This document shows positions 5,219-10,968 of a stretch of DNA of 47,004 nucleotides, piece after piece. Below the pieces are notes generated by a model, which worked only from the letters and a program-made list of their open reading frames with translations, did not search any database and was not told the origin of the DNA. Origin of the DNA: Microcoleus sp. GA_180221_E-2-1-MAG-45_12 (GTDB taxonomy: Bacteria; Cyanobacteriota; Cyanobacteriia; Cyanobacteriales; JAAUUE01); the NCBI GenBank assembly GCA_020692245.1, contig JAIMKT010000012.1, forward strand, positions 27,487 through 74,490. Direction: 5' to 3'. How positions within the stretch are numbered: the first letter of the stretch is position 1; each line of letters opens with the position of its first letter. The position numbers and the translations under genes were made by a program.

Positions 5219-6463
5219 ATGCAGGGAACATTAAGCGAGATTGATATCCGGAGTATTCTCCAGCTCATCGCCCTCGGGCAGCGGACTGGGGAATTATTGA
5301 TTGAAGCCTATCGACAACCGATCGTGAATTCCAATATTAACGCTAGTATTGGCACCACCATTGGCTCCACCTCGGAAATATATAGGGCAGCGGCGGTTCC
5401 GGTGCGGGAGTTGTGGGGCGGGGCGGGTTCCTTTTGGTTTATGTTTTTCCGGGATGGGCAGATTGTCTACGCCGCCGATAGCAGTAGTAGCTTACGCCGC
5501 CTGGGGGATTATCTCCAACGCTACAAACTCCAGTTGCCTAGGGAAAGTTTCCCTGATAGTCAAGGCACAACTACGGCTCCAGAGTATAGTTATCTTTGGG
5601 AATTGCTAGAAAAGCGGCTTTTGACCCCTGCCCAAGGACGGAGCATCATTAGTGGAATGGTCAAGGAAACGTTGTTTGATCTGCTGACTCTGCATCAGGG
5701 TTATTTTATTTTTGATATTGGAGCGGGGTTGACTCCCCAATTGACGACCTTGGAAACTGAGCCGATCGTGACGGAGGTTATGAAGCAGGTGCAGGAATGG
5801 AAGCAACTTCATCCCCATATTCAATCACCGGAACAGTGTCCCATCGTGATCGATCGAGAGCGCTTGCAAGCCTTTTTACCAGAAAATGCCTTTAAGACCT
5901 TGGATACTTGGGCAGATGGGAAAACTTCCCTCAGACAACTCGCCCGCTACTTAAACCGAGAAATCCTGCCCGTGGCGAAGGCTATTTATCCTTGTATTCA
6001 GCAGGGTTGGGTACAAATGCCTGCTTCGGTTCCCCTTGATCCCCACCAGCAACGCCTAGAAAGTAGTATGGCGACGGGAGTTCGTCCCCAAGTAGTGTGC
6101 ATTGACGATGATGGGGCGATCGGCAAAATGATCGAATATACTCTCCAAGCCCACGGTTATCGAGTCACAATTATCCAAGACCCCCTCGAAAGTATTTCCC
6201 AAATTTTCCAACTCCAGCCAGATTTGATCCTCTGCGATCTGGTGATGCCCAAGCTCGATGGCTATGATCTCTGTGGGATGCTCCGCCAATCTACACCCTT
6301 CCGGCAAACTCCGATCCTGATGTTGACTGGAAAAGACGGGTTTATCGATCGAGTCCGAGCCAAAATGGTCGGCGCCACAGATTATCTCACTAAGCCCTTC
6401 CAAGAACAGGAATTATTAATGCTCCTCGAAAAATACATCGGTCTAGGAGAACCTAATATTTAA
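5219..6463 (+). CDS. PatA/HmpA-like response regulator (DUF4388 plus receiver)
   Basis: A 414-residue protein. The N-terminal 200 residues form a PatA-type domain (DUF4388; LSEIDIRSILQLIALGQRTG at the start). A linker follows, then a C-terminal CheY-like receiver (about 290-414) with the acidic pair in VCIDDDG, phospho-acceptor Asp340 in LCDLVMPKLDGYD, a threonine in LMLTGKDG and the Lys of TKPF. All key receiver residues are present. Family knowledge: PatA-like regulators control type IV pilus phototaxis and heterocyst patterning. The start at ATG 5219 is preferred to an upstream TTG because it begins at the domain boundary and follows GGCAGGGAA. The last 129 bases recur at 7099-7227. It is divergent from hmpF. 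Confidence 0.88.
   Translation: MQGTLSEIDIRSILQLIALGQRTGELLIEAYRQPIVNSNINASIGTTIGSTSEIYRAAAVPVRELWGGAGSFWFMFFRDGQIVYAADSSSSLRRLGDYLQRYKLQLPRESFPDSQGTTTAPEYSYLWELLEKRLLTPAQGRSIISGMVKETLFDLLTLHQGYFIFDIGAGLTPQLTTLETEPIVTEVMKQVQEWKQLHPHIQSPEQCPIVIDRERLQAFLPENAFKTLDTWADGKTSLRQLARYLNREILPVAKAIYPCIQQGWVQMPASVPLDPHQQRLESSMATGVRPQVVCIDDDGAIGKMIEYTLQAHGYRVTIIQDPLESISQIFQLQPDLILCDLVMPKLDGYDLCGMLRQSTPFRQTPILMLTGKDGFIDRVRAKMVGATDYLTKPFQEQELLMLLEKYIGLGEPNI
6335..6463 (+). repeat. Direct repeat copy A: 3' end of the PatA-like receiver gene
   Basis: These 129 bases (from GACGGG to the TAA stop) match 7099-7227 without gaps at 115 of 129 positions by my count. Eleven of the 14 differences are synonymous. The pair brackets the gene at 6472-7086. 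Confidence 0.9.
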
Positions 6464-6471
6464 TAAAGCCA

Positions 6472-7086
6472 ATGCTTAGAAACCCAATTCTCCAACCCAA
6501 CCAGCCTTACAATTTCTCCGACTACTTCAAACTCAACTTTGCTCCCCAAGACATCCTTGCCTACTTTGGTGTAACTCTCCAACGCCGATCCTGCCAATTG
6601 CCTCACTACACCGGAGAACTCGATCGACTCACTGACCTCAAAGCTCGCATCGAAGAAAGCCTACCCCGCCTCAGTCTGACCAGTGAAATGGCTCGGCGAG
6701 AATTTTTGATTGCCCCTGTATTGACCGATTTACTCCACTACACCCAAGCTACCCTCAATGTTGAATACCCTGTATCAGTTAGCAACCAACTCAAAGGTTC
6801 CCTCGACTATCTACTGCAAAATCACCAGACATTTCTAGTAGTTGAAGCCAAAAATGAAGACCTAGAACGGGGCTTTGTCCAGTTAGCGATCGAACTCATC
6901 GCCCTCGATCAATGGATAAAATCCGATCAAAGCATCCTGTATGGGGCAATTTCCACGGGGAATATTTGGCAATTTGGTCAGTTCGATCGACAATCTCGGT
7001 GTGTAACTCAAGACCTTAATCTCTACCGTGTTCCTACCGACCTAGAAGACCTTTTGAGAGTTTTAGTCAAAATCATGAATAGTTGA
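6472..7086 (+). CDS. PD-(D/E)XK nuclease-like protein (HsdR_N-type fold)
   Basis: A 204-residue protein resembling the stand-alone N-terminal domain of type I restriction R subunits, common in cyanobacteria. The likely nuclease core is Asp112 in GSLDYLL followed by Glu125-x-Lys127 in VVEAKNED, the PD-(D/E)XK spacing, with a downstream QL-IELIALDQW helix. No helicase or methylase partner is adjacent, so it is unlikely to be a restriction system by itself. The gene begins eight bases after the stop of the PatA-like gene and is followed within 13 bases by a second copy of that gene's 3' end. This placement suggests insertion or recombination. The function is unknown. Confidence 0.7.
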   Translation: MLRNPILQPNQPYNFSDYFKLNFAPQDILAYFGVTLQRRSCQLPHYTGELDRLTDLKARIEESLPRLSLTSEMARREFLIAPVLTDLLHYTQATLNVEYPVSVSNQLKGSLDYLLQNHQTFLVVEAKNEDLERGFVQLAIELIALDQWIKSDQSILYGAISTGNIWQFGQFDRQSRCVTQDLNLYRVPTDLEDLLRVLVKIMNS

Positions 7087-7098
7087 CGATGGATAGGG

Positions 7099-7227
7099 GA
7101 CGGATTTATCGATCAAGTCCGAGCCAAAATGGTGGGAGCCACGGATTATCTCACTAAGCCCTTCCAAGACCAGGAATTATTGATGCTTCTCGAAAAATAC
7201 ATTGATCTAGGCGAACCAAACATCTAA
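7099..7227 (+). pseudogene. Orphan receiver-domain C-terminus (copy B of the PatA-like 3' end)
   Basis: This segment encodes the last 42 receiver residues and a stop, including TDYLTKPF, with three amino-acid differences from 5219-6463 (Arg to Gln, Glu to Asp, Gly to Asp). It has no start codon, no phospho-acceptor region and no upstream reading frame, so it cannot make a working regulator. The mostly third-position differences show that it diverged while still part of a selected gene and was truncated later. Confidence 0.85.
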
Positions 7228-7313
7228 GCATTAGAGTTATGGGGCTAATATTGATTTATAAACGTAAATGTACTGCATCTGCGATAAAATTATAAGCTAG
7301 GCTAAAGAATACA

Positions 7314-8015
7314 ATGCGCCTCATATCATGGAATTGTAAATCAGCCTTTCATCGTAAGCACCTCCTTGTTTGCGAATTGAAACCTGATATCCTGATTGTT
7401 CCTGAATGCGAAAAGTTGGAAGTTTCTTCACTTAATTTTGGAGTATTATCTAATCGGTCATTTGAGTGGATTGGAAATAATCCCAAAAAAGGAATCGCAG
7501 TATATTCATTCGGCAATTATCAATTCGAGGTCTTGCCGATTTTTAATCCTAAGCATCGTTGGGTTATTCCTCTGAAAGTTACGGGAGCGAAATCATTTAT
7601 TCTACTGGCAGTTTGGGCTATGCCAAATAGCGAAACACGCTCTTACGTCCAGCCTCTCTTCGATGCATTAGAAGAATACGGAGAGAAGATTTATTCAGAT
7701 GGAATCTATATCATGGGAGATTTTAATGCTAATTTTATTTTTGATCGACCGAATAAAATTTATAAATTCCAAAATCTGGTTGGTAATTTACACGAAAGAG
7801 GAATAAGGAGCTTATTTCATGAACAACATGGAGCTGAGCATGGAAAGGAAGACCAAAAGACATTTTATATGTATCATCATGAAGACAAGGGCTACCATAT
7901 AGATTATATTTTTGGCGGCAGAAATGTTAGCAAAGGTTCATTTAATGTGACGCTTGGATCATTTAGCGATTGGCACAAATATAGTGACCATGTTCCTTTA
8001 ATTTATACCGAATGA
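7314..8015 (+). CDS. Endonuclease/exonuclease/phosphatase (EEP) family protein
   Basis: A 233-residue protein with the DNase I-like/EEP fold signatures: Asn7 in RLISWNCKS, Glu31 in IVPECE, the GDFNAN motif in mid-protein, HIDYIF, and the terminal SDHVPL containing the catalytic Asp-His pair. EEP enzymes cleave phosphodiester or phosphate ester bonds in nucleic acids, lipids or nucleotides with a divalent metal. The substrate here cannot be read from sequence. There is no signal peptide, so it is probably cytoplasmic. The gene is visibly more AT-rich than gyrA and hmpF and sits beside the duplicated-receiver segment, consistent with acquisition. Confidence 0.82.
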   Translation: MRLISWNCKSAFHRKHLLVCELKPDILIVPECEKLEVSSLNFGVLSNRSFEWIGNNPKKGIAVYSFGNYQFEVLPIFNPKHRWVIPLKVTGAKSFILLAVWAMPNSETRSYVQPLFDALEEYGEKIYSDGIYIMGDFNANFIFDRPNKIYKFQNLVGNLHERGIRSLFHEQHGAEHGKEDQKTFYMYHHEDKGYHIDYIFGGRNVSKGSFNVTLGSFSDWHKYSDHVPLIYTE

Positions 8016-8280
8016 ATAAAATCACTAAACCTAACAAAACGCTAGAGCGAGTCTTGAAATTCTATAAATTGCCTATTTTTAGCCAAGTTTAAGTAAGTAA
8101 AGCTGGTTAGTTTCATTCTTAGTGTGCGATCGATCGCCGCTCTTGAACTCGGAGAAAATTGAACCCTGCAACCAAAAAAGGGACAGGAAAGGGATGGGCA
8201 GAATGTGTTAGAATCAAGACCAGCAAAAGGATTTTGATTAATTTTGTTGTTAGCATTTCCTATTTCCCGGAGTTTCCCCT

Positions 8281-10968
8281 ATGCCTACTTCCCCAGAACG
8301 GATTGTCCCGACTAATCTGCGTAATGAAATGACCCGTTCCTATCTGGAATACGCCATGAGCGTGATTGTGGGGCGAGCCTTACCAGATGCGAGGGATGGG
8401 TTGAAGCCAGTCCATCGGCGGATTCTCTACGCCATGCACGAACTGGGTTTGAGTCCCGATCGCCCCTTCCGTAAATGCGCCAGAGTTGTGGGGGAAGTGT
8501 TAGGTAAATATCATCCCCACGGAGACACGGCGGTCTATGATGCCTTGGTACGGATGGCTCAGGATTTTTCCATGCGGGCGCCCCTCATCAATGGGCATGG
8601 GAACTTCGGCTCCGTCGATAATGATCCCCCGGCAGCCATGCGTTACACCGAGTGTCGGCTGCAAACCCTGACCACCGATTCCCTCCTCCGGGATATCGAA
8701 GCAGAAACCGTAGATTTTGGCGATAACTTTGATGGTTCTCAGCAGGAACCTCTAGTATTGCCCTCCCGGATTCCCCAACTCCTCTTGAATGGCTCCTCTG
8801 GGATCGCTGTGGGTATGGCGACCAATATTCCCCCCCACAACCTCGGCGAACTTATTGATGGGCTGGTGGCTCTGATCCATAATCCCGAAATTACCGATCG
8901 AGAATTGATGCAATACATTCCCGGCCCAGATTTTCCTACGGGGGGACAGATTTTGGGGACATCGGGGATCAAAGAAGCCTACACCACCGGACGGGGTTCC
9001 ATCACCATGCGGGGAGTGGCAGAGATTGAGCTGATCGAACAACCGGGCAGGCAGGATCGAGAAGCGATTATCATCACTGAACTGCCCTACCAAACCAACA
9101 AGGCAGCCCTGATCGAGAAAATTGCCGAAATGGTGAACGAGAAGCGTCTAGAGGGCATTTCTGATATCCGGGATGAGAGCGATCGAGACGGCATGAGAAT
9201 CGTTATTGAACTGAAGCGGGATGCCTACGCCAAGGTCGTACTGAATAACCTCTACAAACAAACCCCCATCCAGACTAACTTTGGGGCAAACATGCTGGCA
9301 CTGGTCCACCAAGAACCCCAGCTCTTGACTATTAAACAATTCCTAGCGGTATTTCTAGAATTTCGGATTGAAACTATTATTCGGCGGACGCAGTACGAAC
9401 TCCGCAAAGCTGAAGAACGAGATCATTTATTATTGGGCTTATTGATTGCCCTAGGTAGATTAGACGGAATTATTCGCCTGATCAGAGAAAGTGCTGATAC
9501 CGCTTCTGCTAAGCAACAATTAACCGAACAGTATGGATTGTCAGAAGTTCAAGCTGATGCTATTCTCCAAATGCAACTCCGTCGCCTCACCGCCTTGGAA
9601 GCCCAGAAAATTCAAGCAGAACATGAAGAGCTAACTCAAAAAATTACCGAACTCCGCCATATTCTTGCCAATCGGGAACGGATTCTGGAAATTGTGGAAA
9701 CCGAAGCCGTAGCGATTAAAACAAGTCATGGAACGCCTCGCTTAACAACCATCGATCCCGGCGAAGGGGAAATCTTTGATATAGATTTAATTGCCAACGA
9801 AAAATCCTTAATTCTTCTCACAGAACAGGGCTACATTAAACGGATGCCCGTGGATACCTTCGAGGCGCAAAACCGAGCCACTAGGGGCAAAGCAGCAACA
9901 AAAATGAAGGATGATGACGGCATCAAGCACTTCTTTACCTGTTGTGACCATGATAGTATTCTCTTCTTTACGGATCAGGGGGTCGTCTACAGTCTCCGGG
10001 CTTACCAAATTCCCTTGGCTTCCCGCACGGCAAAAGGCTCTCCAATTATTCAAATGCTGCCCATCCCCAGAGAAGAGCAAGTTACCTCGATCGTCCCTGT
10101 AAGTGAATTTAGCGATGAGGAATACTTGGTGATGCTTACAGTGCAAGGGTTTGTGAAAAAGACCGCCCTTTCTGCCTTTAGTAATATCCGCTCCAATGGT
10201 TTAATTGCCATTTCCCTCGAAGCCGATGACCAACTCCGCTGGGTACGTCTAGCCAAAGCCGAGGATAGTGTCATTGTTGGCTCTCGCAAAGGCATGGCGA
10301 TCCATTTCCGCACTGACCATACCCAACTCCGACCCATGGGAAGAACAGCCCGGGGGGTAAGAGCCATGAAGCTCACCAAGGGAGATAACTTGATTAGTAT
10401 GGATGTGCTGCCCAGCAGTGTGGTGGCGACGATCGCCAGTGATGTGGAGGCAGAAAATTCTGATTTTGACCGTACGGCACTTGACCAAGAGCTACTGGAA
10501 AGTACCGAAGCTCTAGAGTTGGCAGAAGTTGCAGACATTGCCGAAATCTCCGAGGAAGAAGCTGCTAGTCTCGATTTTGCCGATACGGTAGATGCAGGGG
10601 AAGATGTCGAGCTAACTGCTGAGGGTCCTTGGATATTAATTATCACTAGCAATGGCTACGGTAAACGGGTTCCGGTAGGCATGTTCCGGCTCCAGCGCCG
10701 CTTTGGAAAGGGGATCATTGCCACCAAGTTTAAGTCAAAAACCAGTGGGGATCAGCTAGTGGCTCTGCGGGTTGTGAATCCGGGGGATGAATTGATGATC
10801 GTCACTAACCGGGGGATCATTATCCGTCAGTCTGTGGATGCCATTTCTACCCAATCTCGATCGGCCACGGGAGTCCGAGTCCAACGCCTAGACGAAGATG
10901 ATGCGATCGCGGCAGTGGCTCTGATTCCCCCCTCCAGCGAGGAAGATGAAGAACTAGAAGAAGTCTAG
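8281..10968 (+). CDS. gyrA: DNA gyrase subunit A
   Basis: An 895-residue type IIA topoisomerase A subunit. The breakage-reunion domain carries the catalytic Tyr122 in AAMRYTECR and the quinolone-determining stretch [10 protein letters not shown], with Thr83 where E. coli has Ser83 and Asp87 conserved. The C-terminal beta-pinwheel (from about 510) has a degenerate GyrA box (QNRATRGKA instead of QRRGGKG). It also has an acidic insertion at about residues 720-780, rich in E, D, A and S, before the final blade. With GyrB it introduces negative supercoils. The cyanobacterial GyrA N-terminus is intact. A LysR gene follows with no real gap. Confidence 0.95.

Follow-up and report, generated by a model that had tools for sequence, protein, structure and literature searches.

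In the window, by which we mean the whole 47-kb stretch of DNA analysed here (47,004 nt), the last 129 nt of a PatA/PilG-like regulator gene recur beyond a small gene for a putative PD-(D/E)XK nuclease. The two copies differ from each other in the manner of coding sequence, a close relative carries the regulator uninterrupted, and the same anatomy is found at two other genes. We favour, with more confidence than doubt, the reading that incoming DNA carrying a diverged tail and the nuclease gene recombined at the tail of the resident regulator, and that the old tail was displaced downstream. This looks like a recurrent route of gene addition that is for the most part already known, and not like a single event or a new transposon; it would leave a readable scar of gene gain without integrases or transposons, namely the host gene's own tail recurring past a small cargo gene.

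Two diverged gene tails bracket a nuclease gene

The two tail copies (Table 1) form a direct repeat that aligns without gaps, with 115/129 identical positions (89%) and a start-to-start spacing of 764 nt, and it is the sole direct repeat of at least 60 nt within the 47-kb window. Compared with each other by BLASTN, the two flanks of the nuclease ORF match with E = 8e-46. Only the nuclease ORF, and no methylase gene, lies between the copies, and in the frame of the orphan copy (R2) no start codon occurs in the stretch from the nuclease stop to R2 itself. Other than R2, we found no remnant of a second regulator near the locus.

Table 1. Features of the repeat locus and its surroundings, in window positions
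Feature	Positions	Strand	Description and basis
PatA/PilG-like regulator	5219..6463	+	DUF4388 + receiver domain; intact; host gene of the proposed event; Pfam
Near tail copy (R_a)	6335..6463	+	last 129 nt of the regulator, stop included; direct repeat, 115/129
Inserted segment	6464..7098	+	635 bp; the ORF with 8 nt ahead of it and 12 nt past it; delimited by the repeat boundaries
PD-(D/E)XK nuclease-family ORF	6472..7086	+	204 aa, stand-alone; conserved residues, AlphaFold2 model
Orphan copy of the regulator 3' end (R2)	7099..7227	+	frame and stop kept
Species-specific cargo between R2 and gyrA	7228..8138	.	unlike the corresponding segment of the relative G001
Endonuclease/exonuclease/phosphatase-like ORF	7314..8015	+	PF03372 E=0.003, below cut-off
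gyrA	8281..10968	+	right-hand neighbour conserved in both species; window gene and G001 comparison

The 14 differences between the copies fall at codon position 3 in 12 cases and at position 2 in the other 2, and they leave 11 of the changed codons synonymous and three non-synonymous. As a null model we mutated the near copy at random in 20,000 simulations, which gave an expectation of 9 to 10 non-synonymous codons and produced three or fewer at a frequency of at most 5e-5. The dN/dS between the copies, a value that the initial annotation of this DNA had called for, is 0.031/0.58, and this dS is about that of the regulator between species (0.50). Since the differences are mostly synonymous, both tail copies diverged inside working genes; a fresh target duplication would decay mainly non-synonymously, the opposite of what is seen in the window, and thus the two tails come from different lineages. 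This excludes the simple decay of a perfect duplicate. The initial annotation had described the repeat and its 11 synonymous changes from the letters alone and had read them as divergence within a working gene; its figures are correct on recomputation, and our recount agrees with its reading (P ~5e-5 or less). Because the longest exact run common to both copies is just 26 nt, an assembly slip is an unlikely source of the repeat.

The regulator and the nuclease are separate in a close relative

The regulator of the window is matched by the Pfam families DUF4388 (2e-31) and Response_reg (4e-24). The only genome of the same genus among the relatives searched is a fragmented MAG, Coleofasciculaceae MAG SM2_1_6 (G001), whose regulator ortholog is 98% identical, with a dN/dS of 0.014/0.50 against the window genome (G000). 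In that genome a full-length regulator runs on into a gatB segment, and its tail is not repeated after it (contigs C42 and C284, 97% identical where they overlap). A relative with an uninterrupted regulator, which the initial annotation had proposed to look for, thus exists; its regulator flank differs from that of the window, and the nuclease unit lies elsewhere. The G001 nuclease, 98% identical to that of the window, is found on a different contig in the interval from rnc to gyrA, with a tail-only fragment of ~120 nt on each side (R1 and R2).

Both G001 fragments have decayed with non-synonymous changes, and R2 has acquired a nonsense change. Three non-synonymous changes are common to R1 and R2, and position 42 of the tail is species-specific across all copies, which together we take as a sign of gene conversion between the tail copies. 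The 3' variants CCA and ATC (CCA..ATC) are common to the R2 copies of the window and of G001, which suggests that the downstream copy was probably ancestral to the genus, and the junction between tail and nuclease ('TAA TAAAGCC(A/G) ATG') is likewise common to both.

The surroundings are less constant. The regulator is followed by a CheY-like gene in most relatives, by gatB in G001 and by nuclease-gyrA in the window, and the neighbours of rnc and gyrA are unlike between the window genome and G001. In the window, the downstream flank of R2 matches neither the downstream flank of the G001 regulator nor a conserved operon neighbour, and none of the searched genomes showed an empty site that continues into the same right flank as here. 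The near copy is 97% identical to the G001 regulator tail, against 90% for the gene body; other stretches of the gene are equally similar, and a sharp jump in similarity that would mark a crossover in the regulator was not seen against G001. We also considered a reciprocal recombination junction in G001, pieced together from the intergenic segments beside R1 and beside the regulator, and rejected it on finding that these pieces are dispersed repeats. They belong to a small dispersed intergenic repeat of the genus with two halves of ~50-90 nt (L095 4985-5145, L064 5662-5750, L065 551-596), and in G001 its halves stand beside the regulator end and beside R1. In both species (window 5219-6463; L181, L182) the regulator stands apart from its usual CheY-like neighbour, which is found elsewhere in a shared context.

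To the right of R2, the segment up to gyrA gave nothing significant against the corresponding G001 segment in blastn and tblastx, and homology to G001 picks up again at window position 8139. In G001 the endonuclease/exonuclease/phosphatase-like ORF is replaced by RusA, an AHJR-type endonuclease gene and a small ORF. Its complete replacement from one congeneric species to the other marks this segment (in G001, L064 6617-7962) as a small variable site beside gyrA, occupied by nuclease-type genes.

The same anatomy at a ubiH-like gene and at hsdM

The initial annotation had suggested looking for the same nuclease behind other gene ends with a repeated 3' fragment, and we found such cases at a ubiH-like gene and at hsdM. 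In five genomes of one genus (G042, G080-G083) the nuclease stands antisense behind the ubiH-like gene, and the last 40 nt of that gene (TTGAGGGGAAATATTCCTCAAGTTGCTCAACAATAGAGCA) recur past a 661-bp insert. The near copy runs into insert sequence (GTGGCTC...). The far copy in G082 continues as TCGGTTAAGTGATTA and the uninterrupted gene end in G080 as TCAGCTAAGTGATTA, two flanks that are 91% identical over 55 nt, from which it looks as if the far copy holds the original downstream flank. Gene order surrounding the locus is conserved (G042, G082).

G080 itself was considered as an empty ubiH site and rejected, as it proved to have received two insertions and to keep a gene end of the uninterrupted type. 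Its complete ubiH-like gene is separated by a further insert of ~9 kb from a 223-nt tail copy; the nuclease comes next, and then the 40-nt copy. Thus one ubiH tail took two serial entries, one of them without this nuclease, and since the latter also left a tail copy the process is not specific to the nuclease. The arrangement in G001 (regulator-gatB; rnc-R1-nuclease-R2-gyrA) has the topology of that in G080, in which the complete gene is followed by foreign DNA and then by the nuclease between two tail copies. The ~9-kb insert (L288 3239-12292) holds a DpdF-like helicase gene split by an ISL3-family transposase and a group II intron reverse transcriptase, and the 223-nt tail copy is itself split by a 101-bp insert.

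The third case is an array at an hsdM-like gene in G093 (L274) with the order hsdM-tail-nuclease-tail-vapBC-tail-hsdS. Its second tail copy, 3' of the nuclease, extends over 114 nt at 93% identity and has the VapBC-like pair next to it; the third is 69% identical over 114 nt and then passes into an hsdS-like start, with a local alignment score of 55 against at most 17 in 500 shuffles. The array therefore flanks nuclease and VapBC with hsdM tails of 100/93/69% identity, and by inspection the differences of the third copy are largely synonymous. Relatives whose hsdM is 65-92% identical have a single tail, with hsdS close behind it in several.

A mobile family of putative nucleases

In 46 members of the nuclease family, E72, R75, E77, E125 and K127 never vary, D112 and Q137 hardly ever do, and the active-site pattern of the complete 204-aa ORF, D112..E125-x-K127, is strongly conserved. 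The AlphaFold2 model (pLDDT 93) has an alpha-beta-beta-beta-alpha-beta core, which is the restriction-endonuclease order. Structure matches in the PDB were weak, none below E 0.001, with Cas4, DrdV, McrBC and Holliday-junction resolvase nucleases among the best. By its predicted fold and its D..(D/E)xK residues, the protein fits the PD-(D/E)XK nuclease superfamily. The PADLOC PD_DExK profile matches it at 4e-29, and Pfam HSDR_N_2 matches at sub-threshold level only. With the HsdR N-terminal (HSDR_N) and PADLOC PD_DExK nucleases it shares the restriction-endonuclease fold core and the D..ExK motif; it differs in being a stand-alone protein that is below the Pfam cut-off and has no HsdR helicase or M/S partners adjacent.

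Members of the family were matched in 41/60 relatives, with up to 21 copies per genome and more than 15 in several. Over 190 genome pairs the identity of the nuclease hardly tracks that of GyrA (Spearman rho 0.21), and it is the higher of the two in 140; between a Nostoc and a Leptolyngbyaceae genome, for example, the nuclease is 93% identical and GyrA 78.5%, whereas between the same Nostoc and a Dolichospermum the values are 85% and 89%. The family therefore moves horizontally; its probable nature is that of a defence gene, or a selfish one, passed between lineages. We found no relative of it in viral contigs or phages, and just more distant copies (<60% identity) on plasmids. Between the window genome and G001 the nuclease shows strong purifying selection (dN 0.011, dS 0.25). 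A recent exchange between these two species was considered and not adopted: the dS of 0.25 is the lowest of the real genes, barely under that of efp and of a permease (0.29), and is not decisive.

Frequency of tail brackets

Direct repeats across the gene were scored in those family copies for which both flanks were available, 209 distinct ones that fall into 155 clusters at 85% nucleotide identity. Brackets made of a gene tail occur in 3 independent lineages of the family, and most of the 209 copies are without one. As a comparison we used 633 other ORFs in the same loci, three of which reach an equal score, none being recognised as the tail of a neighbouring gene: one is a piece of an antitoxin's 5' part that follows a PIN toxin, one is low-complexity and one is probably a dispersed repeat. 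The resulting excess around the nuclease family is suggestive only (Fisher P ~0.01, with an estimated denominator of 190 lineages where clustering gave 155). The first of the three control cases lies near trmFO in Symploca SIO2C1 (L110 16026-16830), where an antitoxin-like/PIN-toxin pair is followed by a 35-nt copy of the antitoxin 5' part.

The ends of the unit showed no conservation across family copies. The further proposal of the initial annotation, that this may be an unrecognised small mobile unit, is thus unproven, given the many copies without a bracket, these variable ends and the other cargo that bears the same scar.

Proposed mechanism and alternatives

In the reading that we favour, foreign DNA would have brought in a diverged regulator 3' end with the nuclease gene behind it, and would have undergone homologous recombination with the resident regulator at its 3' end. 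This would give an intact regulator with a new tail and, after 8 nt, the nuclease gene, and the tail that the resident had before would end up beyond the cargo. On the gene side the join would be homologous and on the far side illegitimate (homology-facilitated illegitimate recombination, HFIR), or one crossover with a small circle would have taken place; the anatomy and the donor-like divergence fit HFIR, and the breakpoints are equally compatible with the single crossover. Such an entry would be tolerated since the host gene is undamaged. Which copy is new, the route of DNA uptake and the exact type of recombination are parts of this reading that we infer. The initial annotation had likewise read the locus as an insertion. 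This view gains from the uninterrupted G001 regulator, the synonymous pattern and the ubiH and hsdM brackets; an empty site at the window locus was not found in the genomes searched. Also counting against it at this locus are the unseen crossover jump and the mixing of the copies by gene conversion, and, across the family, the lack of such a scar around most copies.

The nuclease might itself have driven the insertion, making widely spaced nicks or a break in a gene tail into which its own gene was then pasted, so that the repeat would be a true target duplication of 40-130 nt made by a minimal one-gene element. That the inserts are almost only ORF (635 and 661 bp), that the family is multi-copy and horizontally mobile, and that three unrelated gene tails were used would all suit such an element. 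A perfect duplication should, however, decay mostly non-synonymously, as the window copies have not (11/14 codon changes synonymous), and the VapBC pair and the 9-kb helicase segment carry the same scar without this nuclease. With the unconserved ends and the unbracketed majority of copies also against it, we give self-driven insertion only a small share of the probability.

Cutting by the putative nuclease could possibly play a part in entry within the favoured recombination reading too. In its fullest form, the nuclease would cut uninterrupted tails, and repair with incoming DNA carrying tail and nuclease would install the gene behind the tail; we hold this to be rather improbable. If true, it would describe a transposase-free one-gene mobile unit at gene ends, harmless to them, with a chain of orphan tails as its record.

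R2 could alternatively be the relic of a tandem or dispersed duplication of the regulator, with the second copy deleted save for its last 129 nt and the nuclease entering between the two by chance. Duplicated and diverged genes would indeed give the coding-type divergence of the orphan copy. Yet nothing further of a second regulator is found nearby, tail-only fragments stand on both sides of the nuclease in G001 also, and the tail-only pattern recurs at ubiH and hsdM, and a relic of this kind is unlikely at the window locus.

Somewhat less probable again is a duplication of the tail by a rearrangement (inversion or translocation) with its breakpoint at the end of the regulator, the nuclease being there by chance. 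The regulator end is a synteny breakpoint, as its three different downstream neighbours show, and the differing neighbours of rnc and gyrA in the two species are of a piece with this. A breakpoint duplication leaves unexplained why family members lie between tail copies at two unrelated genes with conserved order (G042, G082).

Prophage e14 at icd restores its host gene and leaves a diverged orphan 3' end beyond the insert. A decayed integrase or transposon island of this type would by analogy share the logic of a restored gene end with an orphan end on the far side, but we regard it as very improbable, since the insert is just 635 bp and between the copies there is no integrase, transposase, attachment-site arms or long decayed cargo; the cases here differ from e14 also in having several unrelated target genes.

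Relation to known systems

Insertion with long target duplication is known for restriction-modification genes (Nobusato et al. 2000, described in PMC1643837 and PMC3031569). The likeness lies in a defence-type nuclease gene, long direct repeats of host sequence (here 129 nt in the window, 40 nt at ubiH and 114 nt at hsdM), horizontal mobility and the lack of a transposase. Our cases differ in that a solitary PD-(D/E)XK ORF without a methylase is involved, in cyanobacteria; in that the repeat is always a gene 3' end with the gene left intact, in all three cases; and in that the window copies point to a diverged donor tail, not to copies identical at insertion.

A further parallel is found in HFIR, which was proposed for serially displaced Vibrio T6SS immunity genes (PMC5361080), and in single crossovers, which have given duplications of a lacZ end of 109-950 bp (PMC3240628). 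As in the immunity arrays, a conserved gene end would anchor the incoming DNA, with new cargo beside the anchor and older material displaced downstream, and serial accretion is seen here at ubiH (G080) and hsdM (G093). In contrast to those arrays, the displaced piece is a short non-functional tail and not an immunity gene, and the cargo is a nuclease or toxin-antitoxin pair unrelated to the host gene.

A scar of this kind would indicate the new side of the insertion, can be dated by synonymous change and is searchable genome-wide. For a large cyanobacterial nuclease family it would offer a first concrete mode of spread, and with it a direct test of whether the nuclease aids its own transfer. 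It also carries a warning for annotation: short orphan gene tails behind defence-like genes may be records of insertion and not pseudogenes or frameshifts.

Other repeats around family copies

Several flanking repeats were considered as gene tails and rejected. Those in Dolichospermum and Alkalinema are dispersed repeats, and those at L281, L282 and L301 are low-complexity runs. At L275 (G096) a 110-nt direct repeat of 95% identity (1400-1509 / 2094-2203) surrounds a family copy and includes the first 18 nt of that copy; it is a truncated second copy or a dispersed repeat, and has the look of a tandem copy cut short inside a dispersed repeat. At L130 and L144 a family copy immediately 5' of polA has a weak leader-like repeat to its left and right, which we set aside as a weak promoter-like match. 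The repeats in G023 (L020, L201, L211) belong to head-to-tail tandem arrays of nuclease-family genes with repeated spacers of 60-154 nt.
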